Source: Sedimentisphaerales bacterium (GTDB lineage Bacteria > Planctomycetota > Phycisphaerae > Sedimentisphaerales > SM23-30). Taken from it: DNA of 37,706 nucleotides. The notes below the pieces were generated by a model that worked only from the letters and a program-made list of their open reading frames with translations, ran no database searches and had not been told where the DNA came from. The DNA lies in contig JAFGFX010000193.1 in NCBI GenBank assembly GCA_016930855.1, positions 1 to 37,706 of the forward strand, in the 5' to 3' direction. The first letter of the stretch is position 1, and every line of letters begins with the position of its first letter. This document shows positions 23,801-33,646 of the stretch, one piece after another. Made by a program: the position numbers and the translations under genes.

Positions 23801-25519
23801 CTACCCACCGGCCGGACCGCTTCGGTCCGCGTCCAAGTCGGTATAGAGATCCAAGCCGCCGGCCAGGAGGTAGTGGACCGCGCGGATCAGGTCTTCAATT
23901 TGGGCGTCCAGGCCGGCGGCCAGCGCGGTCGGCTCGCCCGATTCGGCGGGGCAGTGGATACAGGGGACCGTGCCCCGTTGCCCGCACGCCGGACAGGGAA
24001 TCGTTCCCCAGCCCCGGCAGGTCGGACAGGTCTGCATGGGGATGTTGCGCCGCAGGGGCGCGGGCAGGGCGGGCAGGCCCGCGATGCGGATCTGTCCCCG
24101 GCCCTTGCATTCGGGACAACGCTGCCGGCCGGAGCCGCCGCAGAGTTCGCAATCGGCCTGGCGGGTGCCGCCGCAGGCGGTACAGATCGCCCGGGCGTTC
24201 TGCTGATCGCAGCGATCGAGCAGGGCCTCAAGGGGGCTGGCCAGAAAGACGCGGGACAGTGTCATAACCTGCGGGTCCACCGTGGCCTGGCGGAGCAGAC
24301 GGGCGGCGGCCAGATACCGCTGCTGCTGACAGGCCCGCAGTCCTCGGGCCAGGGCATCCAGATGCCGGCGGGACTGCTGGTGGTAGCGTTCTTGCAGTCG
24401 GGTGATCTGCCGGGCGGTCTGGATATCCAGGGGGTCCTCCCGCAGGGCCTGCCTTAGAAAGGCCAGCCGCGAGGCGTCCGTTAGAGGGGTGTTGGGGTCC
24501 ATCAGGGACCGGTCCCAGTTGACGGCTTGGCCGGCGGCGATCGGGGCGGCCGCGTCCGACCGGTTCAGCAGGAGGGTGTATTCCACGGCGGGCGTTTGAC
24601 CCCAATATTCGAAGTAATACAGCATGCTGTATTTCAGGTCCGGATCGTTCCGCAGACGCGACAGATAGAAATAGATCGGCTGCAGGTGGGCGGGATTCCG
24701 CTGGGGGGCCAGGTTGAAGGTGGGATCGAAGGGCACCCAGCCGTACTCGTCGAAATAGACCTCCGCCCAGGAATGCTTGGGGGTGTTGACCCAGCTGGTG
24801 GTCTGGCCGAACACCCAGCGGGCCGGCAGCCCCCGCGCCCGGCAGAGGGCCACGAACAGGGCCGTCAGTTCGTCGCAGTCGCCCCGGCCGTTCTGCGCCG
24901 CCCACTGGGCGCCGCGGGTCTCCTCGCTGAAGGTGTAGCGGACCTTCCGGGTGACCAGGCCGTGGATCTGCTTGACCAGGTCCACGGGCCGGTGGGCCCC
25001 CAAGTCGGCGGCCAGCTCCTGGATCTCGGGTGCGTCGACCTCGAGCAGCCGTTCCGCCTGTAGAAACACCCGCCGGTCGATCGGCTCCGGCGCCGCCGGC
25101 GGGCGGTTCATGGCGGTCAGCAGATCGTAGCGATAGATCTCGGCCCGGCCGGCGATCACCAGCAGGACGGGACTGCGGCCGGCGGGAAACTCGAAGGTGG
25201 CATAGTCATTCTCGCCCACCTGCCAGCGCCGCAGGGGCTTCTGGGAAAACCGCAGATCCGAGACGACCTGGCGCCGCTGGAGGGAGACCGGCAGCAAAAC
25301 GGTCAGGCGGGCCCGTTCGGTGCCCTCGGCCAGGGTGACGGTATAGTGGGCCTCGAAGACGAGCGTTTCGTCCGGCGCCGGCGGGGGCGCATCCCAGGCG
25401 GGCACGACCGGCTCGTCGGCACGTCCGAGCGGCGGGGGGGCGAATCCCAAACCGCCCCCCGCCGCGGCCAGCAGGGCCGGCAGAAACAGGCGCAGAAGAT
25501 ATATATATCGATGATTCAT
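23801..25519 (-). CDS. Secreted transglutaminase-like cysteine protein with C-terminal DnaJ-type CxxC zinc-finger repeats
   Basis: Part of the 1098-aa track ORF; likely start MNHRYIYLLRLFLPALLAAAGGG (ATG 25519, signal peptide-like), 2 bp past the upstream stop (TAG 25524-25522). Triad region GRGDCDELTALFVALCRARGLPARWVFG...KHSWAEVYFDEYGWVPFDPTFN; C-terminus CTACGG/CELCGGSG/CPECKGRG/CPTCRGWG/CPACGQRG/CIHC. Confidence 0.85.
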   Translation of the reverse strand: MNHRYIYLLRLFLPALLAAAGGGLGFAPPPLGRADEPVVPAWDAPPPAPDETLVFEAHYTVTLAEGTERARLTVLLPVSLQRRQVVSDLRFSQKPLRRWQVGENDYATFEFPAGRSPVLLVIAGRAEIYRYDLLTAMNRPPAAPEPIDRRVFLQAERLLEVDAPEIQELAADLGAHRPVDLVKQIHGLVTRKVRYTFSEETRGAQWAAQNGRGDCDELTALFVALCRARGLPARWVFGQTTSWVNTPKHSWAEVYFDEYGWVPFDPTFNLAPQRNPAHLQPIYFYLSRLRNDPDLKYSMLYYFEYWGQTPAVEYTLLLNRSDAAAPIAAGQAVNWDRSLMDPNTPLTDASRLAFLRQALREDPLDIQTARQITRLQERYHQQSRRHLDALARGLRACQQQRYLAAARLLRQATVDPQVMTLSRVFLASPLEALLDRCDQQNARAICTACGGTRQADCELCGGSGRQRCPECKGRGQIRIAGLPALPAPLRRNIPMQTCPTCRGWGTIPCPACGQRGTVPCIHCPAESGEPTALAAGLDAQIEDLIRAVHYLLAGGLDLYTDLDADRSGPAGG

Positions 25520-25521
25520 GT

Positions 25522-28008
25522 CTATTTCCCCGGCGCTGCGGCAGGCGCCGTGGGCTGCGAGTCTGCCAGTATCTCCCAGAGGATCAGATTGTAGATGCCG
25601 CTTTCGCGCAGGGCCCTCATGCCGCCCGCTGCGGCGAGGGCCGCCTGGCGCTGCCGGCGGATCGCGCCGAGAAGTTTCTGGGGCGGCCGGCCGGAGGCGT
25701 TCTGTTCGATCAGGATCTCGACCAGCAGCCCGATCGCCTCCAGCTGGCCGTGCAGATCCCGCAGGGGACTCGACTCGGTCAGCCGATCGGTCTGATAGCG
25801 CAATTCCAGCATGTCCAGCCGCACGGCGAACGACCCGGCCTTCGGATGGGTGCGGGCCAGGCGAAGGCACTCGCCGACCAGCGTCTGCAGGTTGCGGCGG
25901 AGCTGGCCGCCGGGATCCTGATAGACCGGGATCTTGTCGCCCAGCAGGTGCGCCGGCGGTTCGCCGGGCCGGGTCTGCCAGTCCAGATCGTGCAGCGCCT
26001 CGGCCATCCGCGCCGCGAAGAAGGCGCCGGCCGCCAGGAGCTTGAGCTGGGTCGTTTCCGCCGGCCCCAGCGACTCGAGCGATCCGGCGGAGGGCCCGGT
26101 TCCCGGCTGCAGGACCGGCCGCGAAACCGATCCGGCCGCCGTCGAACCGGCGGCGCCGCTGAGATAGGGATACCGCTGGGTGTAAAATTCCCACCACCAC
26201 TCGATGGTCTTTTTGCGCTGGGTCGTGGTATGGATCAGCGGCAGAACGGCGGGCGTGTTGAGCAGGGACTGCTCGGGCTGACCGCTGATGGTCCCCAGGG
26301 CGGTGAGTATCGGCTGAACCGCCTTTCGATCCGGGGTCTTTTCCAGGATCTCCAACAGCCGCAAGGGTATATCCAAATAGGGCATCTCCGCGAGGGCCGA
26401 ACAGATCCGCTGCAGGGTCGCCGGGCTGAGCTCCTGGGCGTCGGCCAGGACCTCCAGCAGGATCGCGGCGGCCTCCGGGGTGGCCTCGATCCGCAATTCC
26501 TCGATGGCGCGATACTGCAGCGCCGGGGGCAATGTTGCCTGCAGCATGGTCCGCAGGGTTTTGAGCCATTCGGCATCGGTCGCGCCGGAGGCGGCGGGCA
26601 CCGACGACGGCTTGAACACGGGGGCATCGACATGCTGCAGGAGCATCTCCAGTCGCTGGCGGGGTCGGTTTTGGCGCAGGAGCGGACCGAGCAGCGATTC
26701 GCTCGGGGACTGTCCCCACGCCAGCTCCTCCACCCTGGCGCAGGTGGCCAGCAGCTCCATCGCCAGATCCGCCAGGGCCAGCGTGTCCGGCGGGTCCGGC
26801 TGGAACGTCTGGCGGACTTGGCGGACGCGGTCGGAGAGGATCAGCTCCGGTTCCGGTTCGACGGCGGCCGGCGCCGGCGAATCCGGTACGGCCGGCGGTA
26901 CGGCATCGGCCGCCTCCGGCGGCAACGCGGTCGAATCGCCTTTGCCGCCATCGTCGGCGGGTTGCTCGGCAGTTTCGCCGGCCGGCGGGCGGACGCGGTT
27001 CGGAATCGGCTCCCGCAGGTTGTACGCCAGGAACCAGACGAACACCACCAGCGCCGCCGCGGGAATCAGACCCTGCATCAGCCGTTGCAGGATCCACCGC
27101 CGCGTTCGGCTAGGCCCAATGGATGGTTCGCTCGACCGATCCGGTTCGGCAATCTCGCCCGCCGCGATCGATCCCGGTCCCTCCGTCACCGACAAGGGAT
27201 CAGGCACGGCAGCGGTCGCCGGCGGTGCAACGGTATAGGTATAGGATGGCGCCGACTCGCTAGTCGGCCGGCCGGGCTTCGCCTGGCCGGATTCGATCGA
27301 GGGGAACAAGGGATCCTCGTCCACCAGGAAACCATCCGGGATGGCGGCCGACACCTGTCGGGCGATGATCCGGCAGGCCTGGTCAGGGGCAATCCCCAGA
27401 TGCTCGGCCAGCGTGCCCAGGCGGACCTCATCATCCGGAAGCAGCCGTCCCTGGCGAACGGCCAACTCCACGGCCTTGCGGAAGAATTCCGTCTCCCGCT
27501 GGTTGGGGACAAAACCCCTGGCCGAGGGCCGCGGGATGCCCTCGAACAAGACGCGGATATCGCCGGCGGAAAATCCCATCTGCTGGAGTTGTCCGGCCAG
27601 GACGGGCCGCTTGTCGTCTTCCAGGGACCCGTCCGGATTCAGGGCGGCCGTGACCAGCTCCTGGGCCCGCCTCAGGACGCGGGCGCGCTCGGCCTTGAGC
27701 CAGCCGGCCTCGCCCCGGCTGGCCTGCCGGCGGAGCTGCTCGTTATAGCGCCGGCGGGCGTCCGGATCGCGCAGCACCGCGGCGGCCGGTTCCAGACGCT
27801 CGGACTCGAACCTGAGCACCAGCGGAATGAAATGGGGGCCGGGGATGCCCTGGCGCAGGCGCTTCTTGCGCTCGAGAAGGGCCTGGTCCACGACCTCGGG
27901 CGCGCAGCCGTCCGGGTCCAGCCCGAGCAGATGGTAATGGGTCGGGTCATCGATCTGCTCGGGAAGATCGAGAAGCCGGTAAAATATTGTCCACGGCAAC
28001 GGTTCCAT
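25522..28008 (-). CDS. Membrane protein with N-terminal J-like domain, one central TM helix and a helical C-terminal region
   Basis: 828 aa; LDLPEQIDDPTHYHLLGLDPDGCAPEVVDQALLERKKRLRQ...LEPAAAVLRDPDARRRYNEQLRR resembles a J-domain without HPD; TM LMQGLIPAAALVVFVWFLAYNL; C-terminal helical repeat-like segments. Confidence 0.7.
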   Translation of the reverse strand: MEPLPWTIFYRLLDLPEQIDDPTHYHLLGLDPDGCAPEVVDQALLERKKRLRQGIPGPHFIPLVLRFESERLEPAAAVLRDPDARRRYNEQLRRQASRGEAGWLKAERARVLRRAQELVTAALNPDGSLEDDKRPVLAGQLQQMGFSAGDIRVLFEGIPRPSARGFVPNQRETEFFRKAVELAVRQGRLLPDDEVRLGTLAEHLGIAPDQACRIIARQVSAAIPDGFLVDEDPLFPSIESGQAKPGRPTSESAPSYTYTVAPPATAAVPDPLSVTEGPGSIAAGEIAEPDRSSEPSIGPSRTRRWILQRLMQGLIPAAALVVFVWFLAYNLREPIPNRVRPPAGETAEQPADDGGKGDSTALPPEAADAVPPAVPDSPAPAAVEPEPELILSDRVRQVRQTFQPDPPDTLALADLAMELLATCARVEELAWGQSPSESLLGPLLRQNRPRQRLEMLLQHVDAPVFKPSSVPAASGATDAEWLKTLRTMLQATLPPALQYRAIEELRIEATPEAAAILLEVLADAQELSPATLQRICSALAEMPYLDIPLRLLEILEKTPDRKAVQPILTALGTISGQPEQSLLNTPAVLPLIHTTTQRKKTIEWWWEFYTQRYPYLSGAAGSTAAGSVSRPVLQPGTGPSAGSLESLGPAETTQLKLLAAGAFFAARMAEALHDLDWQTRPGEPPAHLLGDKIPVYQDPGGQLRRNLQTLVGECLRLARTHPKAGSFAVRLDMLELRYQTDRLTESSPLRDLHGQLEAIGLLVEILIEQNASGRPPQKLLGAIRRQRQAALAAAGGMRALRESGIYNLILWEILADSQPTAPAAAPGK

Positions 28009-28264
28009 AGTCTCTCTATCGAGGATTATCTCAAGTAAAGTTTGCAGGAACGGCTCGGCGAATCCGGCGAGGTGGCAAAGCCACCTTTGATCGCCGCGGG
28101 CTCAATGGGCAAAACGACGGCTCATACTGAGCCTGCCTGGACAGCAAGGGCGGCGAAAACAAAACCACCGGCATAAGTCAAAATAGTCCACCGCCCACTG
28201 AGCACATACGCCTTATCGCCACAATGTTTCCATCAACGTTAGCCAACAAGAACCTCTACGTATC

Positions 28265-30823
28265 TTATTTATGTGACGTCGCGATTGGGGAGTTCTCCTC
28301 CAACCGGTCGAACAGCTCGGACCATTTCGCCGACTCGACGGGGTCGTGACGCAGACGAAACAGGGCCAGCAGCCGGCCGGCCTGATCGGTCTGCCCGGCC
28401 AGCCGGCAGCAGACGATCCACCGGTAATGGGCCTCGTACCAGCCGTCGCTGCGGGCCTCGAGGCCGTAGGCCAGCGTGCGCCACTGCTGGGCGGCGGCGT
28501 CGTACTGCTGCAACTGCTCATAGGTCTGCGCCAGGGATCGCACCACATCGCTGTTTGACCGGATTCCGTGGTCGGCCAGGATGCGGCGGTATTGATCGAC
28601 CGCCTCCAGTCGGCGCCGGCAGCGGAGCAGGTTCCGGGCCAGCCGGCGGCGCAGGATCGGTTCCTGCGACGCCCAGGGCGAATCGGGAGATTCGGACGCC
28701 TCGCGCAGGAACTGCTCATAGAGACGGACCAGCCGGATCCCGACCGCCTGCTCGGTCGCCGGCGAAACGGTCGGTCGATCCACCAGGAGCTCCAGCCGGT
28801 TGGCGGCCCGCACCAGGGCGGCCGCCGAAGAAGCGTCCGGCGACGGACGGGTCAAAAACACCTCCAGCCAGAGCGCCGCGGTCGGCAGATCGGCCTGGAC
28901 GACACAGGCCTCCAGCCGCAGCGCCGAGCGGCGCTGCCAGGAATCGTCGCCGTTGGCGGCGGCCCGGCCGGCCAGACGGTTGAGCAATACCTGCGGATCC
29001 CGCGTCGGCAGCAGGCCCGCGGTTTGTTCGATCCCGTCGAGCAGGCCCAGGGCGGCATTGGGATCGGGCGGCGAAACCTCCAGCAGCTCCCGGGCCACCG
29101 CCAGGCAGAGTTCGACCATCGACGTTGAGAGGGATTCGGCGTCCGCCGACGTTGACAGGGAGGTTTCGTCCGCGCCGCCGCCGGCCGTCGCCAGCGGCAG
29201 GAAGGTCTCGATGGCGCCCACCGCCCGCCGCAGGGGCTCCTGATCGACGCCGTCGGCCGGCCGGTCGGCCGCGGCGGCAAGTTTTCGCTGCTCGAACTGC
29301 CGGAAGGCCGCCAGGGCGCGGCCGTACAGGGCCGATCGATGGAATGCACCGCCGGGGGCGATCGATTCGAGCTGCCGCTCAGCGGCGGCGTATTGCTGGT
29401 CGGCCAGCAGGAACCAGCCGCGCGACCAGCGGCGCTCGTCCGGGGGCACGGTATCAGGCTGTCTGATATCCAGTAGATCCAAAAATAGCTTCACGTCCGC
29501 CGCCGCCACTCGCCGGTCGCCCTGCCAGTCCCGGCGGGCGGCGCCAAGCGCCTGCGGGTACATCCCGGCGGCGCGGGGATCGGATTCGTGCAGGGCGACG
29601 AAATCCCAGGCCGCCTGGAAGGCCTGGCTCCAGGCCTGCTGGTTCCAGCAGGCGGCGGCCCGCAGGTAGCGCAGATCCGCCGCCAGTTGCATCGCGGGGA
29701 CCTGCCCCAGGGTCAGCAGGCCGCTTTGGGCCTCGGCGGCGGCCCGGGCGTAGTCCTGCTTGTGAAAGTACCGGCGGGCCAGGATCATGCAGGCGGCCGG
29801 CGATTCCACGGCAAACGGCTCGATCAGGTCCGCCAGGCGGCCATGCCACGGCTGGCCGTAGGGATAGACGATGACGGCCACCCGCTCGATCCGCTGCCGC
29901 AGGGGGCCGGCGATGCTCCGGGCGGCCGGGTCCTCCAGCAGGGCCTTGAGGCTCTGGGCCCAGGACAGGGCCAGTTCCAGCTCCTGCGGGTCGTAGCTGG
30001 TCCGCTGGGTGTCGTGAAAATACTGCTCGGCGGCCCGCACGGCGTACCAAGGGGAGGGAACCGCCCCGGCGGCCGTCAGGCGCAGCCAGGTGATCTTCTT
30101 ATAGATCCGCTCGGGGGTGTTGGAAGCGTGGATGGTATCCAGATCCAGCCGCTCCAGGACCCGGTAATAGCGCTGCAACTGGTAGTAACAGAGGGCCTCG
30201 CCCAGGAAGCACTCGGCCACCACCGGATGGGCCCGATAGCCGGCATGGGTAAACTGGCCGAAGAGCCCCAGGGCCTCGGCGAGCAGCGTCTGCCGCTCCG
30301 CCGGCGCGGGCGTCACCAGCGCCAGGCTGTAGGCGGCCCAGGCCCGGTTGAAGGCGATCCGGGACAGATACCCGCCGACCTGGCGCCACCAGGCGTTCTT
30401 CTCCACGTCGGCGGCCAGCTTGCGTTCCAGCCGGTCGGCTTCGGCGGCCGCCTGTTCTTCCAGATTTTTATGGTCCAGAATGGTCTGCCGCAGCAGCTGC
30501 TGCGCCTGCTGGCGCAGCGGGTCCTGCTGCGGGTCCTTCTCCCAGGCCGCCGCCAGGATCCGGCCGTAGGTCAGATCGAGATGGGCCCGGAGAAAATCGC
30601 GCGTCAACGGCTTGACGCCCCCCGCCTCGGATTCGAGCTGCCGGCGGGCCCGGCCGAGCAGGTCCTCGGCGTCAGCCAGACTGGCAGAGGCCAGGGCCTC
30701 GGCGGCAAGCTGATCGATGCGGGCCTCCGGCGAATCGGCCTTCTCGTCCTCGGCGGCGGCCAATCCCGCCAGTTGCCCTGTCAGGATCAATCCCCAGAAG
30801 AGCAGCCAGCCCGTTCGGACCAT
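28265..30823 (-). CDS. Secreted alpha-helical repeat (TPR-like) protein
   Basis: Track ORF opens at 31141 and overlaps ExbD; likely start MVRTGWLLFWGLILTGQLAGLAAAEDEKAD (ATG 30823) with signal peptide, then many Ala/Leu-rich helical repeats (e.g. VRSLAQTYEQLQQYDAAAQQWRTLAYGLEARSD). Confidence 0.72.
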   Translation of the reverse strand: MVRTGWLLFWGLILTGQLAGLAAAEDEKADSPEARIDQLAAEALASASLADAEDLLGRARRQLESEAGGVKPLTRDFLRAHLDLTYGRILAAAWEKDPQQDPLRQQAQQLLRQTILDHKNLEEQAAAEADRLERKLAADVEKNAWWRQVGGYLSRIAFNRAWAAYSLALVTPAPAERQTLLAEALGLFGQFTHAGYRAHPVVAECFLGEALCYYQLQRYYRVLERLDLDTIHASNTPERIYKKITWLRLTAAGAVPSPWYAVRAAEQYFHDTQRTSYDPQELELALSWAQSLKALLEDPAARSIAGPLRQRIERVAVIVYPYGQPWHGRLADLIEPFAVESPAACMILARRYFHKQDYARAAAEAQSGLLTLGQVPAMQLAADLRYLRAAACWNQQAWSQAFQAAWDFVALHESDPRAAGMYPQALGAARRDWQGDRRVAAADVKLFLDLLDIRQPDTVPPDERRWSRGWFLLADQQYAAAERQLESIAPGGAFHRSALYGRALAAFRQFEQRKLAAAADRPADGVDQEPLRRAVGAIETFLPLATAGGGADETSLSTSADAESLSTSMVELCLAVARELLEVSPPDPNAALGLLDGIEQTAGLLPTRDPQVLLNRLAGRAAANGDDSWQRRSALRLEACVVQADLPTAALWLEVFLTRPSPDASSAAALVRAANRLELLVDRPTVSPATEQAVGIRLVRLYEQFLREASESPDSPWASQEPILRRRLARNLLRCRRRLEAVDQYRRILADHGIRSNSDVVRSLAQTYEQLQQYDAAAQQWRTLAYGLEARSDGWYEAHYRWIVCCRLAGQTDQAGRLLALFRLRHDPVESAKWSELFDRLEENSPIATSHK

Positions 30824-30899
30824 CCGCCAACCCGCCTGAGGCGTCGCCGGTACGGCGGCGGCCGCTCGCAAACCATATGGCGGGCCGGTCCGAATCACC

Positions 30900-31322
30900 T
30901 CAGTCTCCTCGGGCGGCAAAGGCCACCCGGCTGAATCCCACTTCGTAACAAAGATCCATGGCCCGCACAATCGCGGCGAAGGGGATCCGGTCCTGGCCGG
31001 CCAGGACCACCGGGATGTCGGCGATGGCCCGGCGCAGGCGGAGCTCCTCGGCCAGCGCGTCGAAATCCGCACAGGCCCGGCGGTCGCAGACGATGTGCAC
31101 CGTCTCTGCGTCGCCGGCCAGACGGATCCAGATCGGCTCATAGTCCTGCGGCTCGCGCACCGCGCCGCCGACCTGGGGCAATTGGGCCGACAGGCCGCTC
31201 TCGGTCGGCTGGAAGGACGTCGTACACATAAAAAATATCAACAGCAGGAATACTACGTCGATCATGGCGCCCATGTTCAGGCCCGGCCGGGTGAGCGTAT
31301 GGATATGTCGCATCAGGCGCAT
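30900..31322 (-). CDS. exbD: ExbD/TolR-family biopolymer transport protein (copy 2)
   Basis: GLNMGAMIDVVFLLLIFFMCTTSFQPTESGLSAQLPQ (single TM with conserved Asp). Confidence 0.88.
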   Translation of the reverse strand: MRLMRHIHTLTRPGLNMGAMIDVVFLLLIFFMCTTSFQPTESGLSAQLPQVGGAVREPQDYEPIWIRLAGDAETVHIVCDRRACADFDALAEELRLRRAIADIPVVLAGQDRIPFAAIVRAMDLCYEVGFSRVAFAARGD

Positions 31323-31343
31323 GGCGTCACTCCGCGGGACATT

Positions 31344-31775
31344 CTAGAGATCCTCGCTGTCGGCGTCGAGGACGGCGACCCGCACGTGCTGGATCGACTG
31401 GGCGGCGCAGAGTTGCAGCAATTCCCGCACCTGGCGCCAGGGCGTCGCCCGGTCCGCCCGAATCAGCACCGAGATCTCCCCGGCCGGGATCCGGCGGGTC
31501 TTGCGCTGCAGGAGCCAGGTCAATTGCTGGTGGTCGTAGGGCTGGCCCGCGATCATCAGCCGCCCGTCGGCAAACACGTTCAGGATCACCTGCCGGTCCA
31601 GCGGTTGGCCCGGGCGGTCCCCCTGGGTGGCCTGCGGCAGTTCCAGGGCCTCGATCTCCATCTGGGTAAACTGGGAGACCACCATGAAAAAGATGATCAG
31701 CAAAAAGACGACATCGATCAGGGGCGCGATATTGATATCAATGCCGTAGAGATGAGGTCGTTTTCGCAAACGCAT
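31344..31775 (-). CDS. exbD: ExbD/TolR-family biopolymer transport protein (copy 1)
   Basis: MRLRKRPHLYGIDINIAPLIDVVFLLIIFFMVVSQFTQMEIEALELPQA; start taken at internal Met (31775). Confidence 0.9.
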   Translation of the reverse strand: MRLRKRPHLYGIDINIAPLIDVVFLLIIFFMVVSQFTQMEIEALELPQATQGDRPGQPLDRQVILNVFADGRLMIAGQPYDHQQLTWLLQRKTRRIPAGEISVLIRADRATPWRQVRELLQLCAAQSIQHVRVAVLDADSEDL

Positions 31776-31820
31776 GGCCGATGTCTCCCAACTGGCGGGG
31801 CAGGGCACTTCCTGTTCGTA

Positions 31821-32579
31821 TCAGGCCGTCTGCTCCCGGCGGAAGCGCCCCATGAGTTTTTCCACGACCGATTCGGCCTCGGAGACGTAACTCTCGATCC
31901 GGCTGCGGAACACGGCCACGCAAAACATGGTGGGAATGGCGACGACCAGGCCCAGGCAGGTGGTCACCAGGGCCTCGGAGATGCCGCCGGCCAATTCGGA
32001 CGGCCTCGCCGCGCCCTCCGTTTCAGCGATCTTGTTGAACGCGCGGATCATGCCCGTGACCGTCCCCAGCAAGCCCATCATCGGGGCGCTGGAGGCGATA
32101 AAGGCCAGGTATTCCAGCTTGCGGTTCAAACGGGAGATCTCCCGCTCGCTGGTCTCCTGCATGGTATTCTGCATGTCGAAGAAACCAAACATCGAGCCCA
32201 TCTGGTTGAGGCCGGCGCCGACGACCTGGGCCAGGTAGGAGCCATCCCGGCCGCAGCGCTGTTTGGCCTGCTCGTACTGGCGATTGTGGACCAGCTCTTC
32301 CAGGTCCGCGATCAACTGGGCAGGCAGCAGGCGCTCGCGGCGGATGGTGAGAAAATGCTCGATGACAAAGGCCAGGGCGACCAGCGACATCAACAGGATC
32401 AGGTAGCCGATGACCCCCCCCGCGGCGATGGTGCTCCACAAACTGATTCGCTGTTCGGCGGCCAGCAGGGCCGCCGGGGTCGCCGAGGCCGATTCCGGAG
32501 CCAGCCAGGCAAGCGCGGCCAGGGCCGCCGCGCTGCCAAACACGCGTCTTGTGCGGATACGACAGAAGCACTGTGACAT
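31821..32579 (-). CDS. exbB: MotA/TolQ/ExbB proton channel family protein
   Basis: LEYLAFIASSAPMMGLLGTVTGMIRAFNKIAETEGAARPSELAGGISEALVTTCLGLVVAIPTMFCVAVF is diagnostic of ExbB/TolQ; N-terminal signal-like extension. Confidence 0.92.
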   Translation of the reverse strand: MSQCFCRIRTRRVFGSAAALAALAWLAPESASATPAALLAAEQRISLWSTIAAGGVIGYLILLMSLVALAFVIEHFLTIRRERLLPAQLIADLEELVHNRQYEQAKQRCGRDGSYLAQVVGAGLNQMGSMFGFFDMQNTMQETSEREISRLNRKLEYLAFIASSAPMMGLLGTVTGMIRAFNKIAETEGAARPSELAGGISEALVTTCLGLVVAIPTMFCVAVFRSRIESYVSEAESVVEKLMGRFRREQTA

Positions 32580-32674
32580 GAGAGGACCCTTTGCAAAGGT
32601 ATCGGGGCTGCCGGATGGCTCCCCAGGTTGGGGCAGGCGGCGTCAACGTCATCGAACGCTGCTGCTATAATACA

Positions 32675-33646
32675 TCAGGGGCGGCGCCGGATCGGCGCGG
32701 CGCCCGGAACAAAACGGTAGTGGCCGCGATTCTCCTCGGCGATCCGCATCAACTGCCGTTCGCCCTGATTGTCATGGAAGGCAATCGTGTGGATCTGGAC
32801 CTTGGCCTGCGGATTGGCCTGCTGAATAACGGTACAGGCCTGATCGTGAAAGAGGCCGTCCGAAAGCAGCCAGATCGCGTCCGGTTCCAGCGACAGGGCC
32901 TTGAGCATGGCCCCGGTCGGATCGGTCCCCCCGGACGATCCGATCTGCTCGACCCACTGAAAGGCCTGGGCCTTCTGGGCGTCAGTGCTCCGGACGAGGT
33001 TCTCGGCCGGCATGGCCGAAAAACTGTGGTTGTAAAACAGGATGAAGAACTGCGTATGGGCCGGCAGGGCCTGCACGGAACGATACAGTTCCGCCTTGGC
33101 CGCCCGCAGCTTGGCCCCCTGCATGCTGCCGGAGCAGTCCACCACGTAGATGAACTTGGTGCCCCGGGCCCGCAATCCGAAAAAGCTGGTCGTACCGGCG
33201 CCGTCGGCGCCCCCGCCGGCCAAAAAGCCGTTCCAGGCGTCCGTCATGGTCTCGGCGGTGCCCTGGGCGGGCCCGTCCACGCCGATCAGCGACTCGGCCA
33301 GCGGCTGGGGCCTTTCTGTGGGGATCGCCAGATCGGTGATCTGCCGGTTCTCCAGCGAATCGATGGAAAGGCTGGCCAGGGAGACCTCCGAGGCGTCCAC
33401 CGTTTCGGCCAGCAGCGGCGCCGGGGGGGCCTGCGGTTCCATGCCCTGCGGACCCAGGTAGATGCCGACCTCGGCCTGGCCGGGTCCCCCGCCGGTCGAG
33501 GCCGGCCGGGTGATCAGCATGAAGGCCACCAGCACCGTACAATGCAGGACCAGGGAGACCGTCCAGGAAACGGCCGTTTCCAGACGCCTAGCCGACAAGG
33601 CCCCTCTCGCGACTGGCGGGCTGACGGATTTGCGATGTTCGGGCAT
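32675..33646 (-). CDS. VWA-domain protein with TonB-like N-terminal membrane anchor
   Basis: TM SWTVSLVLHCTVLVAFMLI; VWA MIDAS KFIYVVDCSGSMQGAKLRAAKAEL (DxSxS), later GGTDPTGAMLKAL and AIWLLSDGLF. Confidence 0.85.
   Translation of the reverse strand: MPEHRKSVSPPVARGALSARRLETAVSWTVSLVLHCTVLVAFMLITRPASTGGGPGQAEVGIYLGPQGMEPQAPPAPLLAETVDASEVSLASLSIDSLENRQITDLAIPTERPQPLAESLIGVDGPAQGTAETMTDAWNGFLAGGGADGAGTTSFFGLRARGTKFIYVVDCSGSMQGAKLRAAKAELYRSVQALPAHTQFFILFYNHSFSAMPAENLVRSTDAQKAQAFQWVEQIGSSGGTDPTGAMLKALSLEPDAIWLLSDGLFHDQACTVIQQANPQAKVQIHTIAFHDNQGERQLMRIAEENRGHYRFVPGAAPIRRRP

Follow-up and report, generated by a model that had tools for sequence, protein, structure and literature searches.

What does a proton motor of the ExbB/ExbD kind drive when no TonB gene is recognisable beside it, and which of the genes around it belong to the same machine? 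These questions are raised by a block of seven genes from a Sedimentisphaerales bacterium (Planctomycetota), located in a 37,706-nucleotide stretch of DNA, here called the window, which is the whole of contig G000:C204 from a 3.9 Mb genome that is 84% complete. A sequence-only reading of this DNA had named the seven kinds of gene and proposed a candidate energised envelope system. An ORF check of the window, with starts refined, and Pfam searches confirmed all seven on the minus strand: a VWA protein, read here as a force transducer (32675–33646, 323 aa); an ExbB/TolQ-like proton-channel subunit (31821–32579, 252 aa); two distinct ExbD/TolR-like subunits, ExbD1 (31344–31775, 143 aa) and ExbD2 (30900–31322, 140 aa); a secreted protein whose repeats are TPRs forming a solenoid (28265–30823, 852 aa); a J-like protein (25522–28008, 828 aa); and a secreted fusion of a transglutaminase-like domain with a DnaJ-type CxxCxGxG cysteine domain, the latter referred to as Zn (23801–25519, 572 aa). 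For ExbD1, the repeat protein and the transglutaminase, the likely start is downstream of the mechanical ORF start. Pfam matched VWA_3 (8.9e-12), MotA_ExbB (2.2e-31), ExbD twice (8e-23 and 1.5e-19) and Transglut_core (5.3e-23), and gave weak DnaJ-type zinc-finger matches on the transglutaminase protein.

From the VWA gene to the transglutaminase gene the gaps are 95, 45, 21, 76, 256 and 2 bp. The mostly short gaps that had been described are therefore present at five junctions (2–95 bp), including the reported 2 bp between the J-like and transglutaminase genes, but not between the TPR and J-like genes, where the gap of 256 bp contains a weak terminator-like hairpin found by sequence scan (28119–28133, minus strand); ten such hairpins were found against 5.1 expected by chance. 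The promoter suggested upstream of the VWA gene corresponds to a sigma-70-like site, TTGTCG-17-TACAAT with a TG extension (33808–33780, minus strand), which is a consensus match only; the region has four sigma-70-like sites with TG against 0.9 (sd 0.9) expected. GC3 is 0.82–0.86 across all seven genes, similar to that of the neighbouring genes.

The left part of the window (2014–23669) is a surface-polysaccharide locus. It contains two DegT aminotransferases, a hexapeptide transferase, a nucleotidyl transferase, a GHMP kinase, a UDP-glucose dehydrogenase, a TMEM260-like protein, an epimerase, an asparagine synthase, a PylC-like ATP-grasp protein and a WecA/MraY-type GT4. A link between the motor block and these genes was rejected, as the neighbours of the block vary among the relatives inspected.

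Conservation of the block was assessed by tblastn and HMM searches of relatives' neighbourhoods. The same gene order was found in five other genomes spanning three families of the order (G057, L047; G220, L049; G272, L054; G213, L169; G218, L170), and partial blocks were found at contig ends in G209, G245, G238, G327, G227 and G145, the last of which belongs to another class. This recurrence in other families places the block beyond chance and supports a conserved energised envelope system; a lack of conservation even in close relatives, which would have spoken against the proposal, is not what the searches showed. Most genes in the relatives overlap the next by 4 bp or are followed by it within 39 bp; wider gaps occur in G213 and G272 (81–116 bp) and in G209 (130–231 bp). 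The conserved order, together with these overlaps and very short gaps, marks the block as an operon-like unit.

To describe how the genes travel together, we distinguish the cassette of the window (type B) from a commoner one (type A) described below. In an order-wide sample of 148 genomes, the J-like gene was present in nine, a strong Zn match in the same nine, and a type B ExbB in ten; J-like and ExbB occurred together in seven (hypergeometric P of about 1.6e-8, a statistic that ignores kinship). In each of the genomes with ExbB only (G227, G238 and G327), and in G209 with J-like only, a contig edge falls inside the block. The one real exception is G235, 95% complete, in which a 1044-aa J-like-Zn fusion (L184:5403–8537) lies far from any motor gene. 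Independence of the J-like gene from exbBD, which had been raised as grounds for doubt, is thus contradicted by the co-occurrence and borne out in this single genome, where the orphan fusion indicates that the J-like-Zn module can exist alone. Across a phylum sample of 392 genomes, J-like was found in only five, including G134, with a short weak match, and G145, from the other class. The distribution of the block is narrow and patchy, but real, and J-like and Zn are accessory genes present in every complete copy.

The same data bear on an alternative in which the locus is two adjoining units, a known VWA-ExbB-ExbD-ExbD-TPR motor followed by an unrelated quality-control pair of J-like and Zn genes, with or without the transglutaminase. 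The hairpin-bearing 256-bp gap of the window, the 231-bp gap of G209, the orphan fusion of G235 and the fact that most vWA cassettes have no J-like/Zn pair would all fit such an arrangement. However, the TPR stop and the J-like start overlap or lie at most 20 bp apart in G057, G220, G272, G213, G218 and G145, and the co-occurrence of J-like with ExbB also argues for one unit. We regard two separate units as unlikely.

The transglutaminase fares differently. It had been included in the proposed unit, and as a core component it was rejected: it is missing from all five other complete copies (G057, G220, G272, G213 and G218). Solo homologues occur in about 15 genomes, all but one of which have no type B ExbB. 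The triad C215/H249/D265 is invariant in seven homologues, which places the domain in the transglutaminase-like superfamily, and the solo homologues elsewhere in the order keep the same triad; crosslinking and protease activity are both candidate functions for the window's domain. Within the block, the transglutaminase is fused before Zn in the window and after Zn in G209, two genera of one family, and these opposite orders point to two fusion events or a permutation linking the two domains. The transglutaminase is an optional add-on, found fused in the window's own family, so that the crosslinking or proteolysis once proposed for the system would be at most a lineage-specific addition. Two observations from single genomes may be recorded here. 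In G245 (L182:42–767) a TAG stop falls inside the stretch of the Zn gene that matches the sister G209. The G209 gene runs on into the transglutaminase, and the G245 contig ends 41 bases past that stop. In G281 (L050:9272–11208) two solo transglutaminase genes lie in tandem.

If the block is a unit, the next question is what its motor would act on. The VWA protein has an N-terminal TM helix (residues 28–46) that carries W28, S31 and H35, followed by a linker of about 110 residues and a VWA domain (165–313) whose MIDAS residues D170/S172/S174, T241 and D263 are conserved in aligned orthologues. W28, S31 and H35 are the invariant helix positions in four close orthologues, and S31 and H35 are invariant in ten aligned planctomycete VWA proteins that are 18–40% identical to the window's. 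SxxxH was found at the predicted helix in 35 of 36 VWA proteins encoded within 4 kb of an ExbB, whereas a control set of 600 further proteins from the same loci, each with a helix at the N-terminus, had it in 29; these proteins are related, and the counts are therefore non-independent, though identities reach low values. The single protein without the motif is an overlong ORF in which no helix was found, probably an ORF-calling artefact. A phylum-wide VWA search also catches generic VWA proteins and is unusable as a transducer count. SxxxH forms the first half of SHLS, the motif with which TonB docks on ExbB and TolA on TolQ (PMC12905483); the later L and S are only partly kept, the window having F42 at H+7 and T46 at H+11. 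The absence of TonB noted in the sequence-only reading does not stand in that form, as the VWA protein itself carries a TonB/TolA-type helix and is, on its sequence features, the putative missing 'TonB' of the block.

The motor subunits retain the residues of their families. In ExbB, T173, T207 and the TM3 proline P216 are conserved, and the TM aspartate D21 is invariant in ExbD1, as is the same Asp in ExbD2. ExbD2 orthologues mostly have conserved periplasmic cysteines (CD..C), which ExbD1 lacks; a disulphide is possible. In the ExbB tree, type B proteins form one group (support 93/80) nested in a clade of planctomycete, VWA-linked ExbBs (100/99) that is separate from the rest.

TPR_2 matched 8 of 10 orthologues of the repeat protein; the window protein alone gave no repeat assignment. 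Its AlphaFold model is an all-helical solenoid (pLDDT 86), and by eye the N-terminus is signal-peptide-like, with no TM helix in the protein. Foldseek returned generic helical-repeat solenoids, including a Campylobacter flagellar periplasmic scaffold, with TM-scores that support the fold class at most.

In the J-like protein, a J-like domain at the N-terminus is followed by a TM segment at about 300–332 and a HEAT-like helical C-terminal part. Relatedness of the domain to DnaJ is weak (E 0.019, Pfam; 0.012, PDB) yet domain-wide. HPD is replaced by IPG, IPS, APG or IHD in all ten orthologues (IPG in the window), and assignment as a canonical J-domain co-chaperone was rejected on this ground. 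The lack of HPD suggests that the protein is probably an adaptor, not a DnaK stimulator. From the topology, the J-like domain should be cytoplasmic and the remainder of the protein periplasmic. The structural model reaches only pLDDT 69, and Foldseek gave no match to it below E 1e-3, the best being HEAT/ARM-type repeat proteins. The Zn protein is cysteine-rich and, judging from its N-terminus, secreted; its cysteine domain occupies about 366–572 of the window fusion. J-like and Zn form a single ORF in G057 and G235, consistent with both parts lying in the periplasm, beyond the TM helix.

The type A cassette runs VWA, ExbB, ExbD, ExbD and TPR, without J-like or Zn. An additional secreted gene often lies between VWA and ExbB; it gave TPR matches in two of the four tested. 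VWA matches with E <1e-12 were present in 85 of the 148 genomes, and those inspected show the type A layout, whole or split. A type A-like VWA also occurs in 9 of the 10 genomes with a type B VWA, the window genome among them. The window block thus appears to be a second, paralogous copy beside the commoner cassette. Both types share the core genes and SxxxH, whereas the ExbBs form separate clades, type A has no J-like or Zn genes, and it often has an extra secreted gene or is divided between two loci. In the window genome, a type A VWA-ExbB pair lies at a contig edge (G000:C406; L172, 279–2500). Split type A cassettes occur in many genomes of the order, with a VWA-ExbB-ExbD half and a half made of ExbD plus a large secreted protein (L174, L177, L178, L179, L180 and L183); the halves flank clpX-like and 2-oxoacid oxidoreductase-like genes, read by eye, in a recurrent rearrangement.

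Taken with these features, we hold it very probable that the block encodes a vWA-type force machine. In the mechanism that we propose, the homologous subunits ExbB, presumably a pentamer, and ExbD1/ExbD2, as a putative heterodimer, would form a proton motor in the inner membrane. Like TonB and TolA, the VWA protein would use its SxxxH helix to dock on the side of ExbB. By way of the linker of about 110 residues, its metal-binding VWA domain would reach into the periplasm and may there grip a partner and pull or release it. The most likely partner would be the co-encoded TPR solenoid, a candidate periplasmic scaffold extending towards the outer membrane or surface layer. The J-like membrane protein would tie the machine to the cytoplasm by a presumed contact with the motor, while its helical-repeat part, outside, may bind the secreted cysteine-rich protein, as suggested by the topology and the gene fusions; this protein may also contact the motor, and in the window's family the transglutaminase-like enzyme would be added to it. 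The outcome would be force-dependent envelope maintenance or remodelling of a Tol/Agl-like kind. We consider this full picture, a PMF-driven Tol/Agl-like trans-envelope machine with a TPR scaffold and a J-like/Zn module, to be probable. Counting against it are the 256-bp gap with its hairpin in the window, the orphan fusion of G235, and the weak J-like assignment with its low-scoring model. For any particular cargo our confidence is low.

A further proposal extends this mechanism: the J-like protein might sense the state of the cytoplasm (a folding or cytoskeletal client, for instance) and gate or position the VWA protein, while the cysteine/transglutaminase protein fixes envelope proteins pulled by the motor, making a force-coupled crosslinking machine. 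We think this decidedly doubtful.

Improbable in our estimation is Ton-like uptake, in which the motor and VWA protein would energise import of a large polymer via an outer-membrane receptor, with the TPR and Zn proteins handling cargo. Planctomycetes do take up macromolecules. Ton systems share the ExbB/ExbD motor and a single-helix SxxxH transducer with the block, and a TonB_C search of the 84%-complete window genome found none. The block differs in its two ExbD genes, its extra genes and its transducer, which ends in a VWA domain where TonB has its own C-terminal domain. No block copy contains a receptor gene, and Pfam matched neither a TonB C-terminal domain nor a TonB-dependent receptor in the seven proteins; G057 and G209 carry TonB_C proteins besides the block, which is therefore not their TonB substitute; and VWA domains have no known binding to TonB boxes. 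The missing receptor and the separate TonB_C proteins make this reading less likely.

Equally improbable is an adhesion or gliding machine in which the motor would power a surface-located VWA adhesin with a TPR scaffold. The model for this is AglRQS-Glt of Myxococcus gliding, which likewise has one TolQ/ExbB-like and two TolR/ExbD-like subunits; these work with large TPR proteins of the periplasm and with GltG, a TonB-like membrane transducer that has a cytoplasmic domain (PMC3169522). A gliding role is also among the possibilities suggested for vWA transducers (PMC12204202). However, the VWA protein is not secreted but has an inner-membrane anchor, and no GltA/B/H-like barrels were seen within the blocks. 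A Pfam search of the seven proteins gave no Glt protein (FHA/TonB GltG, outer-membrane GltA/B/H). AglRQS-Glt remains the nearest working analogue, with homology shown for the motor only; the window has VWA and J-like proteins where Myxococcus has FHA/TonB proteins. Anti-phage defence was rejected, since PADLOC gave only a marginal ZorA match (Zorya, ZorAB; E 0.0043) that reflects the common ExbB fold.

Two known systems remain for comparison. To our knowledge, no periplasmic force transducers other than TolA and TonB have been well studied. Tol-Pal shares with the block a TolQ/TolR-like motor, a TolA-like helix and a TPR partner, which in Tol-Pal is CpoB. The window's TPR protein is 852 aa and its J-like and cysteine-rich proteins are extra, and no TolA C-terminal domain, TolB or Pal was found in the block loci. 

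The closest match is to the 'vWA force transducers' predicted bioinformatically, without known function, by Williams-Jones et al. 2025 (PMC12204202). These have an SxxxH TM helix, a linker of about 100 residues and a C-terminal VWA domain, and are encoded, in hosts including Planctomycetes, next to genes for a TolQ-like protein, two different TolR-like proteins and a TPR protein; an AF3 docking prediction was given for the core (PMC12204202). The window has the S-3x-H helix, the linker and VWA domain, and the tolQ-like, two tolR-like and TPR neighbours, so that by sequence its VWA-ExbB-ExbD-ExbD-TPR core is assigned to this group. The second family of that study, TPH-vWA, has no exbD/tolR neighbour and a transducer without SxxxH (PMC12204202), and was ruled out by the two ExbD genes and SxxxH of the window. 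The block had been called undescribed; this does not hold for the core, and it does seem to hold for the J-like and Zn accessory genes and the fused transglutaminase. The words DnaJ, J-domain, zinc and transglutaminase are absent from the main text of PMC12204202, the only match among open-licence full texts from 2020 for vWA with TolQ and TolR. The block gives the planctomycete branch of vWA transducers a defined gene set plus two constant accessory genes, one of them spanning the inner membrane, in genomes that keep two paralogous vWA motors, and single-residue predictions (VWA S31, H35 and D170; ExbD D21) open the idea of a force transducer to direct testing in a cultivated relative. Compared with the published loci (PMC12204202), in which the VWA gene lies downstream, the window block has it first, and the window's subclade adds a J-like membrane gene, a DnaJ-type cysteine gene and, optionally, a transglutaminase.
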